Part shown: positions 44,698 to 53,415 of the stretch, one piece after another
Numbering within the stretch: the stretch's first letter is position 1
How the letters are laid out: every line of letters starts with the position of its first letter
NCBI GenBank assembly: GCA_005518185.1
Contig: RKSN01000001.1
Span: 1,054,501 to 1,118,500 of the forward strand
DNA from: Chakrabartia godavariana
GTDB taxonomy: Bacteria; Pseudomonadota; Alphaproteobacteria; Sphingomonadales; Sphingomonadaceae
Reading direction: 5' to 3'
DNA: 64,000 bases
Notes under the pieces: generated by a model
What the model was told of the DNA's origin: nothing
What the model saw: only the letters and a program-made list of their open reading frames with translations
Database searches by the model: none
Made by a program: the position numbers and the translations under genes

Positions 44698-46548
44698 ATG
44701 AAGATTCAACGCATCAGCCAGATCGGTGCAGGCGTGATGGGCGGGCTTTTCGCCCTTGCAATTGGCATTGGCGCGTATGACGTGAACTACATCCGCATCG
44801 GCGGCACGCTGCACGACCGCGAACAGGCGGCCGCAGATTTGCTTTCAGATACCATGCCTCCGCCCTTGGACGTCTCTGAAGGTTACCTCGTTGCAACGCG
44901 CGTCATTCTTGGGAACGTCTCCAACCGTGAAGCTACGAAGCAGCTCCGCGAAAAGGCGCAGGCATTCAAAGAGCGGCGAGGCTTCTGGGACAAGAACGAG
45001 CATATTTCCAAAGACATCCAGGACGAGTTTCAGCAGAAGATTCTGCCGACCGGTGATCGTTTCTGGAGTGAGGTGGAAGACAATTTTGTTCCGGCAGTTG
45101 AAGCAGGCAATACCGATGCGGCTAAGGCAAGTTTTGCCCGCCTCACCCGGCTCGAGGATGAGAACACCGCGTCGGTGACACGTGCGGTTGACGATCTTCT
45201 GAAGGAAGATGACACTATCGAAGGCGAGGCGTCTTCTGCCGTCATCAGCGCGTCGATCCAACTCGGCCTGATCATGCTGCTCCTCGCTGGCGCCGTGAGT
45301 GCCGCGGTCTGGTTCCTGATGCGCAAGATCCTCGCCCCCACCAATGGCATGATTGCCGTCATGGATAAGATGACCGGTGGCAACTACGACGTCGCCATTC
45401 TCGGCAAGGACCGTGAGGACGAGATTGGCGACATGGCGCGCTCGATCGAAGTCTTCCGCGTTGCCGCCAAGGAACGTCAGGAAGATGAAGCCGCCCAGCG
45501 GATCGTCGTGGCCGAACTGGCCAGCGGTCTGAAGGCAATTGCCGATGGCAATCTGACGCACCGCATCACCGTCCAGTTTGCGCCGAAATATGACTCGCTG
45601 CGCGGCGACTTCAACGATGCCGTGGAGGAACTGAACAGCGTTGTTGGTCGCGTCGCGCGCTCGGCGACAAGCGTCAACACCGGCTCGACCGAAATCAGCA
45701 CAGCCGCCGACGATCTGGCGCGCCGCACCGAACAGCAGGCGGCCTCGCTCGAGGAAACTGCGGCTGCCATGAATGAAGTGACCCAGTCGGTCCGCAGCGC
45801 CTCTGAAAACGCCCGCACCGCCAATCAGGCCGTTGGTCAGGCGATGGACGAAGCCACCAATGGCGGCAAGGTCGTCGGCGAGGCCGTGACTGCCATGGGC
45901 GACATCGAAAAGTCGGCGCAGGAAATCTCGCAGATCATCAACGTGATCGACGGCATCGCCTTCCAGACCAACCTCCTTGCCCTCAACGCGGGCGTCGAAG
46001 CGGCACGCGCCGGGGACGCCGGCAAGGGCTTCGCGGTCGTCGCCAATGAAGTGCGTGCCCTCGCTCAGCGCTCGGCGGATGCGGCCAAGGACATCAAGCA
46101 GCTCATCACCGAATCGAACGTTCAGGTCGAAAAGGGCGTCAGCCTGGTCGGCAAGACCGGCGATATGCTCGCCCGTATCGGCGAACAGGTGGAACAGATC
46201 AGCGGTCTTGTGTCCGGCATCTCGGCGGCGGCCGAAAGCCAGGCGGCCAGCCTGCAGCAGATCAACATCGCGGTTGGCGACATGGACAAGATGACGCAGC
46301 AGAACGCAGCGATGGTCGAAGAAAGCACGGCAGCATCGCGCAGTCTTGCTGGCGAGGCGTCCGAACTGGCCGAACTGGTCGCCCGCTTCCGCACCTCGCT
46401 GTCCGAAGAAGTGTCGCGTTCCACGGCGCGTGCCCCGGCAGCCGCTTCGGTTGCCCGCATCAAGCCCGCCCCCCGCAAGGCGGCGCGCGTGGTCGGCAAC
46501 CTCGCCGTCAAGCAGGACCTGGCCGACGAAGACTGGTCGGAATTCTGA
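44698..46548 (+). CDS. Methyl-accepting chemotaxis protein
   Basis: A 616-residue chemoreceptor. TM1 is at about residues 10-27, a periplasmic helical sensor follows, and TM2 is at about 181-205. Then come a HAMP domain (to about residue 262) and the cytoplasmic signalling helices with the hairpin IAFQTNLLALNAGVEAARAG. The QQAASLEETAAAMNE region holds methylation-type Gln/Glu sites. The last five residues, DWSEF, resemble the CheR/CheB-tethering pentapeptide (NWETF, DWEEF). It is first in the che cluster, with GAAGGAG upstream, so it is probably the cluster's dedicated receptor. Confidence 0.95.
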   Translation: MKIQRISQIGAGVMGGLFALAIGIGAYDVNYIRIGGTLHDREQAAADLLSDTMPPPLDVSEGYLVATRVILGNVSNREATKQLREKAQAFKERRGFWDKNEHISKDIQDEFQQKILPTGDRFWSEVEDNFVPAVEAGNTDAAKASFARLTRLEDENTASVTRAVDDLLKEDDTIEGEASSAVISASIQLGLIMLLLAGAVSAAVWFLMRKILAPTNGMIAVMDKMTGGNYDVAILGKDREDEIGDMARSIEVFRVAAKERQEDEAAQRIVVAELASGLKAIADGNLTHRITVQFAPKYDSLRGDFNDAVEELNSVVGRVARSATSVNTGSTEISTAADDLARRTEQQAASLEETAAAMNEVTQSVRSASENARTANQAVGQAMDEATNGGKVVGEAVTAMGDIEKSAQEISQIINVIDGIAFQTNLLALNAGVEAARAGDAGKGFAVVANEVRALAQRSADAAKDIKQLITESNVQVEKGVSLVGKTGDMLARIGEQVEQISGLVSGISAAAESQAASLQQINIAVGDMDKMTQQNAAMVEESTAASRSLAGEASELAELVARFRTSLSEEVSRSTARAPAAASVARIKPAPRKAARVVGNLAVKQDLADEDWSEF

Positions 46549-46571: not shown

Positions 46572-46856
46572 ATGACGACCATCAGCTTGCCCACGGCGAT
46601 TGACCGCCGCGCAGTGTCCGGCCTCACGGTCGAGATCTCCGATGCCCTGGCCAAGGGCGGTGCGCTCAAGCTGGACGGCAGTGCCGTCCAGCTGGTGGGC
46701 CAGATCGGGCTGCAACTGCTCCTTGCCGCCCGCAAGACGGCATCCGGGCGCGACGCCCGACTGTCCATCGAGACCCCGAGCGACGCCATCCTGACCGCCG
46801 CAAAGATTTCCGGCACCACAGACTTGCTCGGATTGGACACCCACGATGCAGCATGA
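46572..46856 (+). CDS. STAS-domain protein (CheS/CheX-like position)
   Basis: A 94-residue single STAS domain. The fold is suggested by a central LKLDGSAVQLVGQIGLQLLL segment, matching the beta-strand/helix of SpoIIAA-like proteins, but the phosphorylated Ser of DSSGL is replaced (GQIGL), so kinase-phosphatase switching is unlikely. Its place between the receptor and cheA matches small proteins such as CheX in Caulobacter and CheS in Sinorhizobium, the latter known to act with CheA on signal termination. Its stop overlaps the cheA start by 11 bp, so the two are coupled. Confidence 0.82.
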   Translation: MTTISLPTAIDRRAVSGLTVEISDALAKGGALKLDGSAVQLVGQIGLQLLLAARKTASGRDARLSIETPSDAILTAAKISGTTDLLGLDTHDAA

Positions 46857-49056
46857 CGAAATCCAGCAGATATTCCTTCTGGAATGCGATGAAGGGCTGG
46901 ACATTGCCGAGCGCAGCCTGCTCGCGTGCAAGGACGGCTCGGGCGACGCGGAGTCAATCAACTCGATCTTTCGTGCGGTGCACTCGATCAAGGGCGGCGC
47001 AGGCGCCTTCGGCTTTACGCCGCTTCAGTCCTTCACGCACAAGTTTGAAACCGTGCTGCAGCAGGTCCGCGACGGCGACAAGCCGCTGACGCCGGGGCTG
47101 CTCAAGACGCTGATCCGCGCCTTTGACATCCTGACCGACCATGTGTCCGCCATCAAGGGACAGGCCGACGCCCCGTCGGACAACGCCATTTCCGCCGAGC
47201 TGGAAGGCATTGCGACGGGCGAGATCGTCCCCGAAGAAGACTCCGCATCCACCGCTGATCCGGCCCCCCTCCCCGAAGCCGAGCCCGAAGCCACGGCGGA
47301 GGAAGAGAGCGGCCGTGAGATTGCGGCCAATGACGATGCCGATATCGATTTCGATGCGCTGCTGGCCGACCTTGATGTGCCCGAAAGCAAGGAAGGCGGG
47401 CATGTCCTGCACCTTCGCCCGACGGCCCGCGCACTCGACAATGGCAGCGACCCGATCCTGCTGCTGCGTGAACTCCACACCCTTGGCGCGACCGTGCGGA
47501 CCGTCGATGCATCAAGCGTCCCCGATCTCGACAATTTCGCCGCCGAGTCCGCCTATCTCGGCTGGGAGATCGATGTGCCCGCGTCGGTCACGCGGGCCAA
47601 GATCGACGAGATTTTCGATTTCATCGGCGATGCCTGCGATCTCGCCATCTATGTGACAGGCGAAGAGCCGCGCTTTGTCGAACAGGCAGACCCCACGGTC
47701 GTGAAACTGCCGGAGGCAGCGCCGCTTGCTCCAACGCCGGAGCCCGAGGCTCCCAAGGTTGAACCGGCGGCCGCTCCCGTGCCCGCCATTGCCTCCATCA
47801 AGCCTGAAACCGCTGCCGATCCGGTTTCTGCGCCGCCTGCGGTAAACGCGGTCAACTCGGCTGCCGCTGCGGCTCCGGTGGCGACCATTCGTGTCGACCT
47901 CGACCGGCTCGACCGGCTGGTCGACACTGTGGGCGAACTGGTCATCACGCAATCGATGCTGGCACAGCGCCTGAGCGGCGCTGGCGTCGCGGCCGAAGAC
48001 GAGCTGTCGCAGCTCGAATATCTGACGCGCGAGTTGCAGGACTGCGCCATGGCGCTCCGGGCACAGCCGATCCGCTCGGTCTTCAGCCGGGTGCCGCGCA
48101 TTGTCCGCGAACTCGAATCCGAAACGGGCAAGCGCGTGACGTTGACCGTCGAAGGGGAAGCCACCGAGCTCGACAAGACCGTTATCGAACGCATTGGTGA
48201 GCCGCTCACGCACCTCATCCGCAACGCGATCGATCATGGCCTGGAGCCGGTGGAAGACCGCATCACCGCCGGCAAGGCCGCAGAGGGCAATGTCCGTCTG
48301 TCCGCCGAACAGCGAGGAGGCCATATCCTCATCTGCGTCGCCGATGACGGCCGTGGCATTGATCGCGCGCGCGTCTTCCAGAAGGCCGTGGAGCGCAAGA
48401 TCGTCGCCCCCGATGCGCGCCTGACCGATGAGGAAATCGACAACCTGATCTTTGCGCCGGGCTTTTCGACCGCCGAACAGGTGTCCAACATTTCGGGCCG
48501 CGGGGTCGGCATGGATGTCGTGAAGCAGGCCATTCAGGGCCTTGGCGGGCGCGTCAGCATCTCGTCGGAGCCGGGCAAGGGCACTGTCTTCTCGCTCTCC
48601 CTCCCTCTCACCCTTGCCATTGCCGATGGCATGATCGTCAGCAGCGGCGGCGAAACGCTGATCCTGCCGCTCAACAATGTCGTCGAAAGCCTGCAGGCCA
48701 AGCCCGAAGATCTGAAGCGCCTCACGCCGTCCCAGCACGTCATCAACGTCCGCGGCAGCTATCTGCCGGTCGTGCCGCTGACGACCAGTCTGGGCATCGG
48801 ACAGATCGCAGAGGATTCAGCGCAGAATGTGCTGATCGTCGTCGAAACCGAATCCTATGGCCAGATCGCCATTCAGGTCGATGCCATTCAGGACCAGCGT
48901 CAGGTGGTCATCAAGAGCCTTGAGACCAACTTCCGCCCGATCACCGGCATTGGCGGCGCAACCATCCTCGGCGACGGCCGCATTGCCCTCATCGTCGATG
49001 TCGAGGCGCTGGCCGCTGCCGCCCACAGCCCGAAAGAGCTGGACCTCGCTGCGTGA
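46846..49056 (+). CDS. cheA: Chemotaxis histidine kinase CheA
   Basis: A 736-residue CheA. The P1/HPt domain has the phosphorylated His at residue 46 (VHSIKGGAGAFG). A divergent middle region follows: a domain at about residues 184-281 (HLRPTARALDNG...) replaces the classical CheY-binding P2, and an Ala/Pro/Glu-rich linker precedes residue 349. Dimerisation P3 begins at VDLDRLDRLVDTVGEL; the P4 kinase has NAIDHGLEPVEDR, DDGRGID and GRGVGMDVV. P5, the CheW-like receptor-coupling domain, runs from about residue 588. The receptor it serves is probably the adjacent MCP. Stop overlaps cheR (GTGA). Confidence 0.96.
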   Translation: MQHDEIQQIFLLECDEGLDIAERSLLACKDGSGDAESINSIFRAVHSIKGGAGAFGFTPLQSFTHKFETVLQQVRDGDKPLTPGLLKTLIRAFDILTDHVSAIKGQADAPSDNAISAELEGIATGEIVPEEDSASTADPAPLPEAEPEATAEEESGREIAANDDADIDFDALLADLDVPESKEGGHVLHLRPTARALDNGSDPILLLRELHTLGATVRTVDASSVPDLDNFAAESAYLGWEIDVPASVTRAKIDEIFDFIGDACDLAIYVTGEEPRFVEQADPTVVKLPEAAPLAPTPEPEAPKVEPAAAPVPAIASIKPETAADPVSAPPAVNAVNSAAAAAPVATIRVDLDRLDRLVDTVGELVITQSMLAQRLSGAGVAAEDELSQLEYLTRELQDCAMALRAQPIRSVFSRVPRIVRELESETGKRVTLTVEGEATELDKTVIERIGEPLTHLIRNAIDHGLEPVEDRITAGKAAEGNVRLSAEQRGGHILICVADDGRGIDRARVFQKAVERKIVAPDARLTDEEIDNLIFAPGFSTAEQVSNISGRGVGMDVVKQAIQGLGGRVSISSEPGKGTVFSLSLPLTLAIADGMIVSSGGETLILPLNNVVESLQAKPEDLKRLTPSQHVINVRGSYLPVVPLTTSLGIGQIAEDSAQNVLIVVETESYGQIAIQVDAIQDQRQVVIKSLETNFRPITGIGGATILGDGRIALIVDVEALAAAAHSPKELDLAA

Positions 49057-49925
49057 CGATGCCTTCGCTCAACATCGCAAGCCCGTTTGAGGGCGACAAT
49101 GCGCATGTCTTTTCGCGGGGCGACTTCGATACGATCTCGAAGCTGATCTATCGCGAGTCCGGCAATGTCCTGCCCCCCGGCAAGGCGATGCTGGTCTATT
49201 CCCGCCTCGCCCGGCGCCTGCGCGAACGCAACCTCGCCACCTTTTCCGATTATATCGGCCTCATCCGGCAGGACGATGATGAGCGCCGCGTCGCTGTGGC
49301 GCTTCTGACCACGAACCACACCTATTTCTTCCGAGAGGATCATCACTTCGACCATTTCCGCGACCATGTCCGCGACGGGCTGATCGAGCGCGCCAAGGCC
49401 GGGGAGACGGTGCGCTTCTGGTCGGCGGGCTGTTCGAGCGGGGAAGAGGTCTATTCGCTCGCCTTCACGCTGCTCGGGCCTGACCGCAATGCCGGGCTTC
49501 AGCTGGCGCAGAAACCCTTTGCCTTCCTCGCCAGCGACCTGACCGAAAGCGTCCTCGAAACCGGCAAGGCGGCGCTCTACCCCCAGAGCGCGCTTGACCC
49601 GGTTCCCTCTGCCCTGCGCAATAGCTGGACCAAACCCATCGGCACCAATGTCCAGATCGCGGACCAGGTGCGCAACCTAGTCCGGTTCCGCCGCCTGAAC
49701 CTGCTCGGCGAATGGCCGTTCACCCGCGACTTTCAGGTCATCTTCTGCCGCAACGTCATGATCTATTTCGATGAGCCGACGAAGGAAGGCCTCGTCGAAC
49801 GGCTCGCGGCCTGCCTCGAGCCCGGCGGCTACCTCTATATCGGCCATAGCGAACGCCTGCCCGGATCCAGCCACCGCCATTTCGACATGGTCGGCAAGAC
49901 AATCTACAGAAAGCGAGACGCATGA
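49053..49925 (+). CDS. cheR: Chemoreceptor methyltransferase CheR
   Basis: A 290-residue SAM-dependent methyltransferase that methylates receptor glutamates. The N-terminal helical domain is at about residues 18-80, then NHTYFFREDHHFDHF, the SAM-binding FWSAGCSSGEEVYSLA, and NVMIYFDEPTKEG followed by YLYIGHSERLPG. The beta-subdomain that recognises receptor pentapeptides lies in the second half. GTG at 49053 is coupled to cheA; a later ATG at 49059 would remove two residues. Overlaps cheB by 4 bp. Confidence 0.95.
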   Translation: MTMPSLNIASPFEGDNAHVFSRGDFDTISKLIYRESGNVLPPGKAMLVYSRLARRLRERNLATFSDYIGLIRQDDDERRVAVALLTTNHTYFFREDHHFDHFRDHVRDGLIERAKAGETVRFWSAGCSSGEEVYSLAFTLLGPDRNAGLQLAQKPFAFLASDLTESVLETGKAALYPQSALDPVPSALRNSWTKPIGTNVQIADQVRNLVRFRRLNLLGEWPFTRDFQVIFCRNVMIYFDEPTKEGLVERLAACLEPGGYLYIGHSERLPGSSHRHFDMVGKTIYRKRDA

Positions 49926-50956
49926 TCACCCGCGTACTGATCGTCGACGATTCCGCCACGATGCGCGCCATCCTGAAGACGATGCTCGGCAAGGAACCGG
50001 GGATCGAAGTTGTCGGCACCGCCGCCAACGCCGCCGAAGCGCGGACGCTGATCAAGGAACTGAACCCGGACGTCATCACGCTCGACATCGAAATGCCGGG
50101 GATGAATGGCCTCGAGTTTCTCGCAAAGATCATGGCACTGCGGCCCACACCTGTCATCATCGTGTCGGGTCATGCCGGCAATGGCGCCGAAATCACGATG
50201 GAAGCGCTGCAGATCGGTGCCTTTGACTGCTATGAGAAGCCCAACGGCCATGATGGCCAGCTTCTGGCGGGCGATGGCGGGGTGCTCGCGCGGATCATCC
50301 GCCTTGCGGCGCGCCACGGCGTTCGCCCGAAATCGACCGTGGTACAACGCGCCGCCAAGGGTGCGGCCGCAGCGTCCGACGCAACACGTCCCGGCGGCCA
50401 GAAGAAGCTCATCGCCATTGGCGCCTCCACGGGTGGGGTCGAAGCGCTCACCAAGCTCTTGACCCAATGGCCGGCCAATTGCCCGCCCACTGTCATCGTC
50501 CAGCATATCTCCGGCGCGCTGGCCAAGGCGCTCGCCCGCCGGCTCGACACCATCTCGCCTGCCACTGTTTCCCTTGCCGAAAGCGACCGCTTTCTGGAGC
50601 CGGGCCATGTCTATCTCGCGCCCGGCAATGAACGCCATCTCGTCGTGCGGGGGAGCGGACGCCTGCTGACCAAGCTGATGTCGGCCGACCCGATTTCCGG
50701 TCATCGCCCCAGTGTCGATGCCCTGTTTGAATCCGTGGCCGCCATTGCCCCGGCAGCCGCGACCGGCGTCCTGCTGACGGGCATGGGCGAGGACGGCGCG
50801 CGCGGGCTACTCGCCATGCGAAAGGCCGGTTGCGAAACGATCGCTCAGGATGAGGCGACGTCAGTTGTGTACGGCATGCCGCGCGTGGCCGTGGAGTTGG
50901 GCGCAGTCGATCGCGTGCTCCCCATCAGCCGCGTCGCGGAGGCCGTGTTCGCATGA
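49922..50956 (+). CDS. cheB: Chemotaxis methylesterase CheB with complete catalytic triad
   Basis: A 344-residue receptor methylesterase/deamidase. The receiver has DDSATMRAIL and phosphoacceptor Asp55 (TLDIEMPGMNGLEF). The effector domain has the nucleophile Ser169 (GASTGG), His195 (VQHIS) and Asp291 (GMGEDGARG), so the Ser-His-Asp triad is intact. The GHRPSVDALF segment, also typical, is at about residue 260. It is coupled with cheR and cheD by 4-bp overlaps. Phosphorylation by CheA should switch on methylesterase activity in adaptation. Confidence 0.95.
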   Translation: MITRVLIVDDSATMRAILKTMLGKEPGIEVVGTAANAAEARTLIKELNPDVITLDIEMPGMNGLEFLAKIMALRPTPVIIVSGHAGNGAEITMEALQIGAFDCYEKPNGHDGQLLAGDGGVLARIIRLAARHGVRPKSTVVQRAAKGAAAASDATRPGGQKKLIAIGASTGGVEALTKLLTQWPANCPPTVIVQHISGALAKALARRLDTISPATVSLAESDRFLEPGHVYLAPGNERHLVVRGSGRLLTKLMSADPISGHRPSVDALFESVAAIAPAAATGVLLTGMGEDGARGLLAMRKAGCETIAQDEATSVVYGMPRVAVELGAVDRVLPISRVAEAVFA

Positions 50957-51513
50957 CCGTTTCTGGTCTTCTCGCCGACGAGAACCGCATCAACGTCATT
51001 CAGGGCGACTTCCACGTCAGCGACGGGGAACAGATCGTCCTGTCAACCGTGCTCGGCAGCTGCATCGCCATCTGCCTGTACGATCCTGCCATCCGCACGG
51101 GCGGCATGAACCACTTCCTCCTCGCGGCCCCCGGCGGCAACGAGGCCCCCGACCCGCTGAAGCAGCGGCTTTATGGGGCCTTTGCGATGGAGCAGCTGAT
51201 CAACGAGATGCTGAAACGGGGCGCCAACCGGTCGACAATGCGCGCACACATCTATGGCGGGTCCAACATCAACCGGGCCATGGCGCATATCGGCACCACA
51301 AATGCCAATTTCGCGCGTGAGTTCCTGCGCGAGGACGGGATTCCGATCAGCCATGAAGATACCGGCGGCTCGGCGGCCCGGCGATTGGACCTGAAACCGG
51401 CCACGGGCCAGATTCGCTGTAAACATATTCCCACAGAGGACGTTCCACGTATTGCGCTGCCGCCGTTGCGGCCTGTCGAGCGTGCCCCTGCGGGCGATGT
51501 GGAACTCTTTTAA
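50953..51513 (+). CDS. cheD: Chemoreceptor glutamine deamidase CheD
   Basis: A 186-residue CheD. The catalytic Cys lies in VLGSCIAICL (about residue 36) and the partner His in GGMNHFLLA (about residue 56). The rest (LINEMLKRGANRSTMRAHIYGGSNI, RDFL-like FAREFLREDGIP, DTGGSAARRLDL) fits the family. CheD deamidates receptor glutamines, and in some species it forms a complex with CheC, but no cheC gene is visible here. An ATG at 50953 lies in the cheB stop. cheY follows 18 bp later. Confidence 0.95.
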   Translation: MTVSGLLADENRINVIQGDFHVSDGEQIVLSTVLGSCIAICLYDPAIRTGGMNHFLLAAPGGNEAPDPLKQRLYGAFAMEQLINEMLKRGANRSTMRAHIYGGSNINRAMAHIGTTNANFAREFLREDGIPISHEDTGGSAARRLDLKPATGQIRCKHIPTEDVPRIALPPLRPVERAPAGDVELF

Positions 51514-51531: not shown

Positions 51532-51900
51532 ATGGGTCCCATCACCATTCTTACCGTGGACGACAGTCCCAGCATGCGGGCGCTTCTGAAGCACGCCCTT
51601 GTTGGCCAGGGACATGTTGTCCACGACGCCGAAGACGGCCTGATCGCGCTCGATTGGCTCAACCGCCATATTCCCGATCTCGTGATCACCGACATCAACA
51701 TGCCGAAGATGGACGGCTTTGGCCTGATCGAAGCGCTGCGCAAGCAGGACCGCTATCGTGACATGCCGATCCTCGTGCTCAGCACCGAAAGCTCCGACGA
51801 AAAGAAAGCACGCGCGCGGGACGCCGGTGCAACCGGCTGGATCGTCAAGCCCTTTGACCCCGACAAGCTCGCTGCGGCCGTCCGCCGCGTAACACACTGA
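51532..51900 (+). CDS. cheY: Single-domain response regulator CheY
   Basis: A 122-residue receiver with no output domain. The acidic pocket is VDDSPSM, the phosphoacceptor Asp is in VITDINMPKMDG (about residue 54), the conserved Thr/Ser is in VLSTES, and the Lys is in IVKPFDPDKL. As CheA-phosphorylated CheY it would bind the flagellar switch or another motor. The motor is not in this window. It is the only stand-alone CheY in the cluster. Confidence 0.94.
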   Translation: MGPITILTVDDSPSMRALLKHALVGQGHVVHDAEDGLIALDWLNRHIPDLVITDINMPKMDGFGLIEALRKQDRYRDMPILVLSTESSDEKKARARDAGATGWIVKPFDPDKLAAAVRRVTH

Positions 51901-51914
51901 TCCGGAGACGCAGC

Positions 51915-52358
51915 ATGCAGCAATATATCACCTTCCAGATCGGCGAGCAGGTTCTCGGCATCGACATCATGGCTGTGCGTGAAATCCGCGCCTGGTCCCC
52001 GACAACCGCGCTGCCGCACGTCGCAAGCCATGTGCGCGGCGTCGTCAACCTGCGCGGCACGGTCCTGCCGGTCATGGATCTGCGCGCCCGCCTCGGCTGG
52101 GGCGCGACCGACCCGTCGGCCCGCCACGTCATCATGGTCGTCCGCGTGAACGAACAGCTCCAGGGCCTGATCGTCGATGCGGTCAACGACATCGTTTCGA
52201 TTGACGATGCGACGCTGCAGCCGCCGCCCGATGTCTCCGGCAATCGTCTCGGCGAAATCATCCGCGGCCTCGCCTCGATCGAGGACCGCATGGTCATGAT
52301 CCTGGCGCTTGAGGCGCTGGCCATCGAACCCGAAGGCAGCGTCGCAGAAGCTGCCTGA
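51915..52358 (+). CDS. cheW: Chemotaxis coupling protein CheW
   Basis: A 147-residue CheW that links receptor and CheA P5. The SH3-like double barrel is seen in YITFQIGEQVLGIDIMAVREIR, HVRGVVNLRGTVLPVMDLRARLG and LQGLIVDAVNDIVSI. It is 14 bp after cheY with a clear GGAGA site, and a 31-bp gap leads to the second CheB-like gene. Length is normal. Confidence 0.95.
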   Translation: MQQYITFQIGEQVLGIDIMAVREIRAWSPTTALPHVASHVRGVVNLRGTVLPVMDLRARLGWGATDPSARHVIMVVRVNEQLQGLIVDAVNDIVSIDDATLQPPPDVSGNRLGEIIRGLASIEDRMVMILALEALAIEPEGSVAEAA

Positions 52359-52389: not shown

Positions 52390-53415
52390 ATGTCGGTCGC
52401 AAAAGTTCTGGTCGTTGATGACTCGATCACCATGAGAGCGCTGTTCAGCGACGTCCTGGAACGGACCAAAGGCATTGAGGTCGTAGGCGCCGCACGCGAT
52501 GCCAATGAGGCGCGCGACATGATCGAGGACTTGAGCCCCAATGTCGTCACACTCGACGTCGAGATGCCCGGCATGAACGGTCTCGATTTCCTTGCCGAAA
52601 TCATGAGCACCAACCCCCTGCCCGTTGTCATGCTGTCCACGCGGACGGGCAAGGGCGCCGAAACGTCGCTCCGCGCGTTTGAACTTGGCGCTGTCGAGTG
52701 CTTCCCAAAGCCCCAGCAGGCAACGCCCGACGAGTTTGACAAAATTGCCAACACGCTGGGCAAGCTCGTCCTGTCGGTCGCCAACCACAAGGTCACGGCG
52801 CCAGGCGCTAATGCCGGGGCAGGCTTTACGGGAACCTTCGTCTGGGACGGCACGCTGGTGGCGCTCAGTGCCTCCACGGGCGGCATTGAGGCCATCACCG
52901 AGGTGCTGCGCGGTTTTCCCGAAAACTGCCCGCCGACAATTGCGCTCCTCCGGATTGATGGCGGCTTCGTCGCGCCCTTTGCCGCCAAGCTCGCCGACGC
53001 GATCAAGCCGCAGGTCAAGATCGCAGCCGAAGGCATGGTCCTTGAACAGGGCGTCGTCTATCTCGCCGCCGACCCGTCATCGCACGTCGTCGTCGACCAA
53101 TGGCCAAATGGCCGCATCCGCTTTCTCGATCGGGAACCCGTTCAGGGCTTCAAACCATCGGCAAGCCTGCTCTATGCCTCAATGGCCAAGGCGGGCGGCA
53201 AAATGCTCGGCGCTGTGCTGACCGGCATGGGCAATGATGGCGCGCAGGGTATCAAGGCGCTGAAGGCCGCCGGCGGCAAGACGCTGGCGCAGGACAAGGA
53301 AACGTCGATCGTCTCCGAAGCCCCCGTCAGTGCGGTCGAGACCGGTGCGGTCGATCAGGTTCTTCCCCTGAATGCGCTCGCCGGTGCCATCCTGAAAGCC
53401 TGTCAGGACGCCTGA
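52390..53415 (+). CDS. CheB-like response regulator with a disrupted methylesterase triad
   Basis: A 341-residue protein with CheB architecture. The receiver is intact, with Asp10/Asp11 and phosphoacceptor Asp56 (TLDVEMPGMNGLDF). The effector domain keeps Ser162 (SASTGG) and Asp283 (GMGNDGAQG), but the His site reads LLRID, so residue 188 is Arg instead of His, and the HRPS segment is FKPSAS. Catalysis is therefore probably lost or changed. Since a complete cheB is nearby, this copy may be a regulatory or pseudo-enzyme, for example binding receptors or CheA-P without hydrolysis. It is coupled by 1 bp to the last ORF. Confidence 0.92.
   Translation: MSVAKVLVVDDSITMRALFSDVLERTKGIEVVGAARDANEARDMIEDLSPNVVTLDVEMPGMNGLDFLAEIMSTNPLPVVMLSTRTGKGAETSLRAFELGAVECFPKPQQATPDEFDKIANTLGKLVLSVANHKVTAPGANAGAGFTGTFVWDGTLVALSASTGGIEAITEVLRGFPENCPPTIALLRIDGGFVAPFAAKLADAIKPQVKIAAEGMVLEQGVVYLAADPSSHVVVDQWPNGRIRFLDREPVQGFKPSASLLYASMAKAGGKMLGAVLTGMGNDGAQGIKALKAAGGKTLAQDKETSIVSEAPVSAVETGAVDQVLPLNALAGAILKACQDA

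Follow-up and report, generated by a model that had tools for sequence, protein, structure and literature searches.

A sphingomonad CheB paralogue with a conserved receiver and a broken catalytic triad, a candidate phosphoryl sink in chemotaxis

A response regulator whose output domain belongs to an enzyme family is generally taken to be an enzyme. CheB, the methylesterase and deamidase known from Salmonella (1a2o) and captured by the family entries PF01339 and NF001965, joins a receiver to a CheB_methylest domain. Phosphate sinks are known in CheZ-less alphaproteobacteria (PMC2924250, PMC8429497), such as the CheY1 of Sinorhizobium meliloti and the CheY6 of Rhodobacter sphaeroides, and CheV, which combines a CheW domain with a receiver, is a phosphorylatable chemotaxis protein without enzyme output (PMC12691637). 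A CheB with a dead esterase domain has been engineered by a Ser-to-Ala exchange (PMC8609364). Here we describe a natural protein, CheB2, that shares with CheB both domains and a colinear alignment but has a broken triad, has mostly lost the basic residues of the tether site and carries Glu for Lys/Arg at position 70. Like the sink CheYs, it provides an extra phosphorylatable receiver in a CheZ-less alphaproteobacterial pathway, but it carries a CheB-type effector-like domain, and its sink role is one that we infer. Like CheV it would lack an enzyme output, although it has no CheW domain. It resembles the engineered CheB in coupling a receiver to a presumably dead esterase domain, whereas the laboratory mutant keeps the tether site and CheB2 is mostly without its basic residues. 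In the open-access literature searched, with subscription papers largely outside that search, we found no report of a natural inactive CheB, of a CheB2 family or of a natural pseudo-CheB family of sphingomonads.

The window, a stretch of 64,000 nucleotides from the genome of Chakrabartia godavariana, contains a chemotaxis operon in the order MCP-STAS-cheA-cheR-cheB1-cheD-cheY-cheW-cheB2, with cheB2 as its last gene (Table 1). The genome (3.17 Mb, five contigs) has two CheB_methylest matches, two MCPs and one CheR, and its CheW domains occur in cheW and cheA only. Thus CheB2 belongs to the genome's only such system, and we saw no sign of a second one. Searches of this genome with the CheZ and CheX models gave no match. 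CheZ is nearly absent across the family anyway (found in 4 of 199 genomes), so genomes with CheB2 are not unusual in lacking it, and no specific link between CheB2 and CheZ loss was found. A promoter and terminator scan gave nothing clearly above shuffles. The STAS-domain gene between MCP and cheA is seen again, scoring weakly, in many of the related che operons. The second MCP of the genome (L200:3478-4962, minus strand, contig C2) is protoglobin-coupled and has no xWxxF tail.

Table 1. Features of the che operon in the window, of the cheB2 gene and of cheY-cheB2 pairs elsewhere
Feature	Position	Strand	Basis or remark
MCP	44698..46548	+	C-terminus DWSEF (xWxxF-type tether)
STAS-domain protein	46572..46856	+	Pfam
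cheA	46846..49056	+	Hpt, dimerisation, ATPase and CheW domains
cheR	49053..49925	+	genome's only CheR match
cheB1	49922..50956	+	triad intact, Ser169-His195-Asp291
cheD	50953..51513	+	
cheY	51532..51900	+	sole cheY of the operon
cheW	51915..52358	+	31 bases upstream of cheB2
cheB2, predicted non-catalytic CheB paralogue (341 aa, ATG start)	52390..53415	+	ORF, Pfam, alignments
CheB2 receiver domain, about residues 4-110 (D10, D11, D56, S83/T84, K107)	52399..52719	+	Pfam PF00072 at 6-110
CheB2 Glu70 codon	52597..52599	+	Glu in 91/91 CheB2 rows, 0/136 CheB1-type rows
CheB2 alpha5-linker region, about residues 113-138, CheB2-specific sequence	52726..52803	+	Leu128/Asn132 versus Arg in CheB1
CheB2 methylesterase-like domain, residues 157-334, triad Ser162-Arg188-Asp283	52858..53391	+	Pfam PF01339
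CheB2 Arg188 codon, at the place of the catalytic His	52951..52953	+	alignment
cheY-cheB2 pairs	L211:6424-8056 and L212:6442-8059		two species of one genus, without che operon

CheB2 has the architecture of a CheB, with Pfam scores of 74.5 bits for the receiver and 151.2 bits for CheB_methylest. The first-pass annotation had read this open reading frame as a CheB-like protein with Asp56, Ser162 and Asp283 in place, Arg at residue 188 and altered LLRID and GFKPSAS segments, and all of these lie where it put them (the segments begin at residues 186 and 253). In the alignment with the Salmonella structure (1a2o; E 4e-60), which is colinear and gap-free through the catalytic His, that His is paired with Arg188, as the annotation had anticipated. 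One NCBIfam CheB subfamily model accepts CheB2 (300.2 bits, cut-off 293) and a second rejects it (257.3 bits against a cut-off of 342). Because one model accepts the protein, automatic naming would make it an ordinary CheB, a warning for genome annotation if, as predicted, it is non-catalytic.

Relatives were drawn from named species genomes (the best 80 of 486 relatives with CheB2 as query) and from samples of the family (199 genomes) and the order (396 genomes), some genomes being in both collections. Among 232 aligned CheB rows, in which the window's two CheB proteins are each counted twice (in the window and at the own-genome locus, where CheB2 is L002), 94 are CheB2, two of them without an effector domain. 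The Ser-His-Asp triad occurs in none of the remaining 92 readable CheB2 rows and in all 138 CheB1-type rows, which include CheBs of other systems in genomes of the same family. CheB2 is broken in many ways: the frameshifted row of L057 reads EHA, and there are 16 other combinations (SQD 34, GDD 11, GAD 8, DHD 8, SRD 7, SPD 5, SND 4, EHD 4, DQD 3, and APD, GED, NGD, GQD, ADD, SSD and SGD once each). The L057 gene (L057:8006-9094) is from Sphingomonas beigongshangi, and the apparent frameshift in its effector domain may reflect decay or an assembly error. Arg188 itself is not conserved across these sphingomonad homologues: Arg is found in 7 rows only, those of the window's lineage (the window counted twice) and L020, so that it is lineage-specific, and Gln is commonest (the 34 SQD rows). 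The receiver residues D10, D11 and D56 are kept in all 94 rows and K107 in 93, the other having a gap, so the phospho-acceptor Asp, acidic pair and Lys are present where the Ser-His-Asp triad is not.

That CheB2 is a pseudoenzyme is therefore well supported by these alignments, and the earlier proposal of a pseudo-methylesterase with a phosphorylatable receiver is borne out at the level of the family. Some hydrolase activity might persist through another base or a non-triad mechanism, since the window protein keeps Ser162 and Asp283 and some relatives keep the His (DHD, EHD), but no readable row has kept Ser and His together. The window CheB2 has only two histidines, at 133 and 232, and H232, the sole one in the effector domain, sits in a column where the CheB1 proteins encoded at those loci likewise have His, which makes it an unlikely replacement base. 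We thus judge an alternative catalytic His unlikely on sequence, and residual activity very improbable. As relatives share a CheB2 that is broken in so many ways, it is probably a signalling protein and not an enzyme.

Phylogenetic analysis indicates a single, sphingomonad origin for the CheB2 family. In a careful tree of 96 rows with the triad columns removed (55 CheB2 rows below 85% mutual identity and 41 CheB1-type rows below 62%), CheB2 forms one side of a branch with support of 100/100, recovered in 200 of 200 bootstrap trees. On this tree the triad state changes at least 17 times, with at least four changes between Ser kept and lost and at least three for His. A quick tree, which omits the CheB2 rows L073 and L057 and 15 rows more than 95% identical to a kept row, suggests two independent inactivations, of His in one branch and of Ser in another. 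In the careful tree, the clade that keeps its His lies within CheB2 instead, and catalysis may have been lost once or more often. CheB2 was confirmed in at least 23 of the 199 genomes of the family sample, the window included. Outside the family, 23 genomes of the order are among the matches listed at E 1e-50 or better, with one match each, and the nine of these examined all have Ser-His-Asp.

The operon type of the window, cheA-cheR-cheB-cheD-cheY-cheW, was found at 60 loci, 51 of which have CheB2: it follows cheW in 26, lies divergently at the opposite side in 23 and is placed in some other way in 2. The nine loci without it are L001 (a short piece of the window's own genome), five that end at a contig end (L061, L096, L104, L105, L108), L026 of G128, where CheB2 lies just beyond the locus (L202), L126 of G024, where it is elsewhere in the genome (L127), and L024 of G182, a one-CheY operon in whose genome a whole-genome search found no CheB2. 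(L201, L202 and later loci are in none of the alignment, tree or row-count sets.) All 42 window-type operons with enough flank have one CheY, and 41 of the 42 carry CheB2, G182 being outside this count and L126 the sole miss. In the type cheY-cheA-cheW-cheR-cheB-cheY-cheD, other alphaproteobacteria included, there are two CheYs in 24 of 26 loci and CheB2 in 0 of 26; this type resembles the rhizobial two-CheY systems, where CheY1 is the phosphate sink (PMC8429497). In the loci compared, CheB2 occurs where the extra CheY is missing. Common descent may however account for the linkage of CheB2 to the one-CheY operon, and ancestry and sampling confound the comparison, loci found with CheB2 as query being CheB2-enriched.

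These features lead us to a model in which CheA~P would phosphorylate Asp56 of CheB2, as it does CheB and CheY, and CheB2 would compete with CheY and CheB1 and drain CheA~P, either directly or through back-transfer from CheY~P. As no ester hydrolysis would follow, CheB2 would act as a phosphoryl acceptor and could fill the sink role of the rhizobium-type second CheY in a cell without CheZ, while its retained effector-like domain and re-sequenced alpha5-linker probably set its lifetime or localisation or bind a partner. The reading that we prefer, at roughly even chances, is that CheB2 is a phosphorylatable, non-catalytic CheB which serves as a phosphoryl sink or competes for CheA~P, and which perhaps has a new partner. 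What the comparison provides is an intact receiver, a broken triad, a single origin, selection and a place in the operon; phosphorylation by CheA, lack of catalytic activity and a sink function are, we infer, most likely. A sink-type protein is expected to combine an intact phosphorylatable receiver with no catalytic output, as CheB2 appears to do, and the competition for CheA-P proposed by the first-pass annotation fits the comparative evidence. A sink does need a short-lived phospho-form, and in R. sphaeroides both CheB~P forms outlast CheY6~P (PMC2924250), which speaks against the model. Many sphingomonad genera would thus keep a CheB in which the enzyme is dead and the switch well preserved, in most cases with an active CheB in the same operon. 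If so, phosphotransfer from CheA to CheB serves some purpose other than receptor demethylation, and CheB2 is a natural separation-of-function protein.

CheB2 is also found apart from the che operon. Two genomes of one genus, G114 and G174, have a cheY-cheB2 pair between a TonB receptor gene and a glycosyltransferase gene. None of the cheA or cheW of the window's operon accompanies the pair, and each genome has two CheW-domain matches side by side elsewhere, which in G174 adjoin a CheB of another system with 34% identity. No CheB1 of the window's kind is among the matches listed for these genomes (ten candidates per genome, down to about 2e-32). Between G114 and G174, dN/dS is 0.29 for the CheB2 receiver, 0.32 for its effector domain and 0.18 for CheY, indicating purifying selection. 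In G024, a 2.1 Mb genome, CheB2 comes in a row after a protoglobin MCP and a protein that is CheA-like but gave no Hpt match (L127:2335-7014); the receptor adjoining CheB2 there resembles the protoglobin MCP of L200.

Across 43 loci with both genes (L073 and L057 omitted; 903 pairs), mean identity is 0.655 for the CheB2 receiver versus 0.624 for that of CheB1, and 0.433 versus 0.596 for the effector domains. Taken pair by pair, CheB2 has the less conserved effector domain in 885 of the 903 cases and the better conserved receiver in 613. For 695 pairs, most of them distant and with a dS that is measurable but near saturation, mean dN/dS is 0.34 (receiver) and 0.42 (effector) for CheB1, and 0.29 and 0.64 for CheB2, so that over long distances the putatively dead domain drifts faster. 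There are 34 positions conserved at 90% or more in CheB1 and below 60% in CheB2, counted on a set of 91 CheB2 rows that omits L057 (frameshifted), L073 and L132 (no effector domain). They include, as CheB1 residues in CheB2 numbering, S162, T163, Q187, H188, H254, D259, M280, G310, M311 and P312, and those outside the triad presumably lie at the active site. Over short distances, the CheB2 receiver is identical at 116 of 116 residues to those of L033 and L034 (dN/dS 0, dS 0.84 and 0.80), and effector dN/dS against the same two loci is 0.045 and 0.049 for CheB2 and 0.070 and 0.069 for CheB1. The catalytic site thus appears to be abandoned in a CheB2 effector domain that is itself under purifying selection. 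The drift of the active-site columns, the raised effector dN/dS of distant pairs and the frameshifted copy of L057 might suggest a functionless duplicate in decay, but the identical receiver and the purifying selection on the putatively dead domain (effector dN/dS below 0.05 against L033 and L034) indicate that CheB2 is no decaying gene. The estimates between G114 and G174 agree, and the gene is kept in many genera in a recurrent neighbourhood. We reject decay, which is barely credible.

A pure sink leaves the keeping and selection of a whole effector-like domain unexplained, and the retained, selected domain suggests a further binding function. CheB2 has signature residues of its own. Glu70 contrasts with Lys or Arg in 132 of the 136 CheB1-type rows, and Pro106 (99%), Phe105 (98%), Gly154 (98%), Phe116 (89%), Trp152 (81%), Leu260 and Arg248 are conserved in CheB2, whereas the 44 CheB1 rows that have a CheB2 in the same locus show them seldom or not at all. 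Pro106 and Phe105 are present in about one fifth of the 92 other CheB1-type rows. The linker helix is the more conserved in CheB2 (2.69 versus 2.18 bits per column). These residues and the linker, the purifying selection on the effector domain between close relatives, and the place of the G024 gene, behind a protoglobin receptor and the CheA-like protein that gave no Hpt match, would suit a phospho-regulated adaptor, in which phosphorylation opens the domains and exposes the alpha5-linker and the remodelled active-site face to a partner (e.g., CheD, CheA or the globin receptor). Such a new partner is the main rival to the sink, although we regard an adaptor of this kind as somewhat unlikely. 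Somewhat more probable, though still less likely than not, is the broader view that CheB2 is a distinct, ancient non-catalytic class of CheB, a phospho-switch whose esterase domain has been remade into a module for regulation or docking with a partner specificity of its own (the charge reversal at Glu70, the FPKP motif, the remodelled alpha5-linker), able to work with CheY even without receptor methylation.

The first-pass annotation had suggested that CheB2 could compete with CheB1 for receptors. In such a dominant-negative role, CheB2~P would sit on the tether or methylation helices and slow demethylation by CheB1. The operon MCP ends in DWSEF, and tails of this xWxxF type occur in 73 of 84 distinct MCP tails of the fetched loci, several others being cut at locus ends. 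In PMC8609364, the alpha5-linker of enteric CheB is modelled to bind the receptor pentapeptide through three basic positions (128, 132 and 134), a hydrophobic position (135) and a position with a large residue (138), the authors stressing plasticity, and the Ser-to-Ala CheB still binds the receptor, more weakly where the pentapeptide is present. In the window, CheB1 has Arg128/Arg132/Gly134/Val135/Lys138 and CheB2 has Leu128/Asn132/Lys134/Val135/Pro138, which departs from the basic pattern at 128 and 132 but has the basic residue at 134. Comparing the 44 same-locus CheB1 rows with the 91 CheB2 rows, position 128 is basic in 44 versus 17, 132 in 30 versus 14, both in 30 versus 1 and 134 in 29 versus 20, while 135 is hydrophobic in 27 versus 89 and 138 large in 38 versus 52; both basics occur in just 36 of the 92 CheB1-type rows whose loci have no CheB2. 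The near-loss of both basics speaks against simple receptor competition, as do the relaxed former active-site positions and the presence of CheB2 in G114 and G174 without a window-type CheB1 among the matches listed. The idea is weakened but not emptied, in that the other modelled positions are partly kept (hydrophobic 135 above all), 14 of the 15 rows of the CheB2 clade with Asp or Glu for Ser are basic at 128, and the engineered CheB still binds. We consider receptor binding improbable, and less likely than a new partner.

Three further loci depart from the usual arrangement. In L131, the CheB1 (L131:7976-9007) has an intact triad and changed receiver residues, and in the CheB2 of the locus (L025, L131) the receiver is intact and the triad is broken, on sequence a reverse division of labour. 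A receiver-less CheB with an intact triad (L119:1887-2597) follows an MCP and precedes cheD, cheY and cheW homologues. L132 carries a receiver-only CheB2-like open reading frame (L132:1968-2417), and a full CheB2 is encoded in that genome as well.
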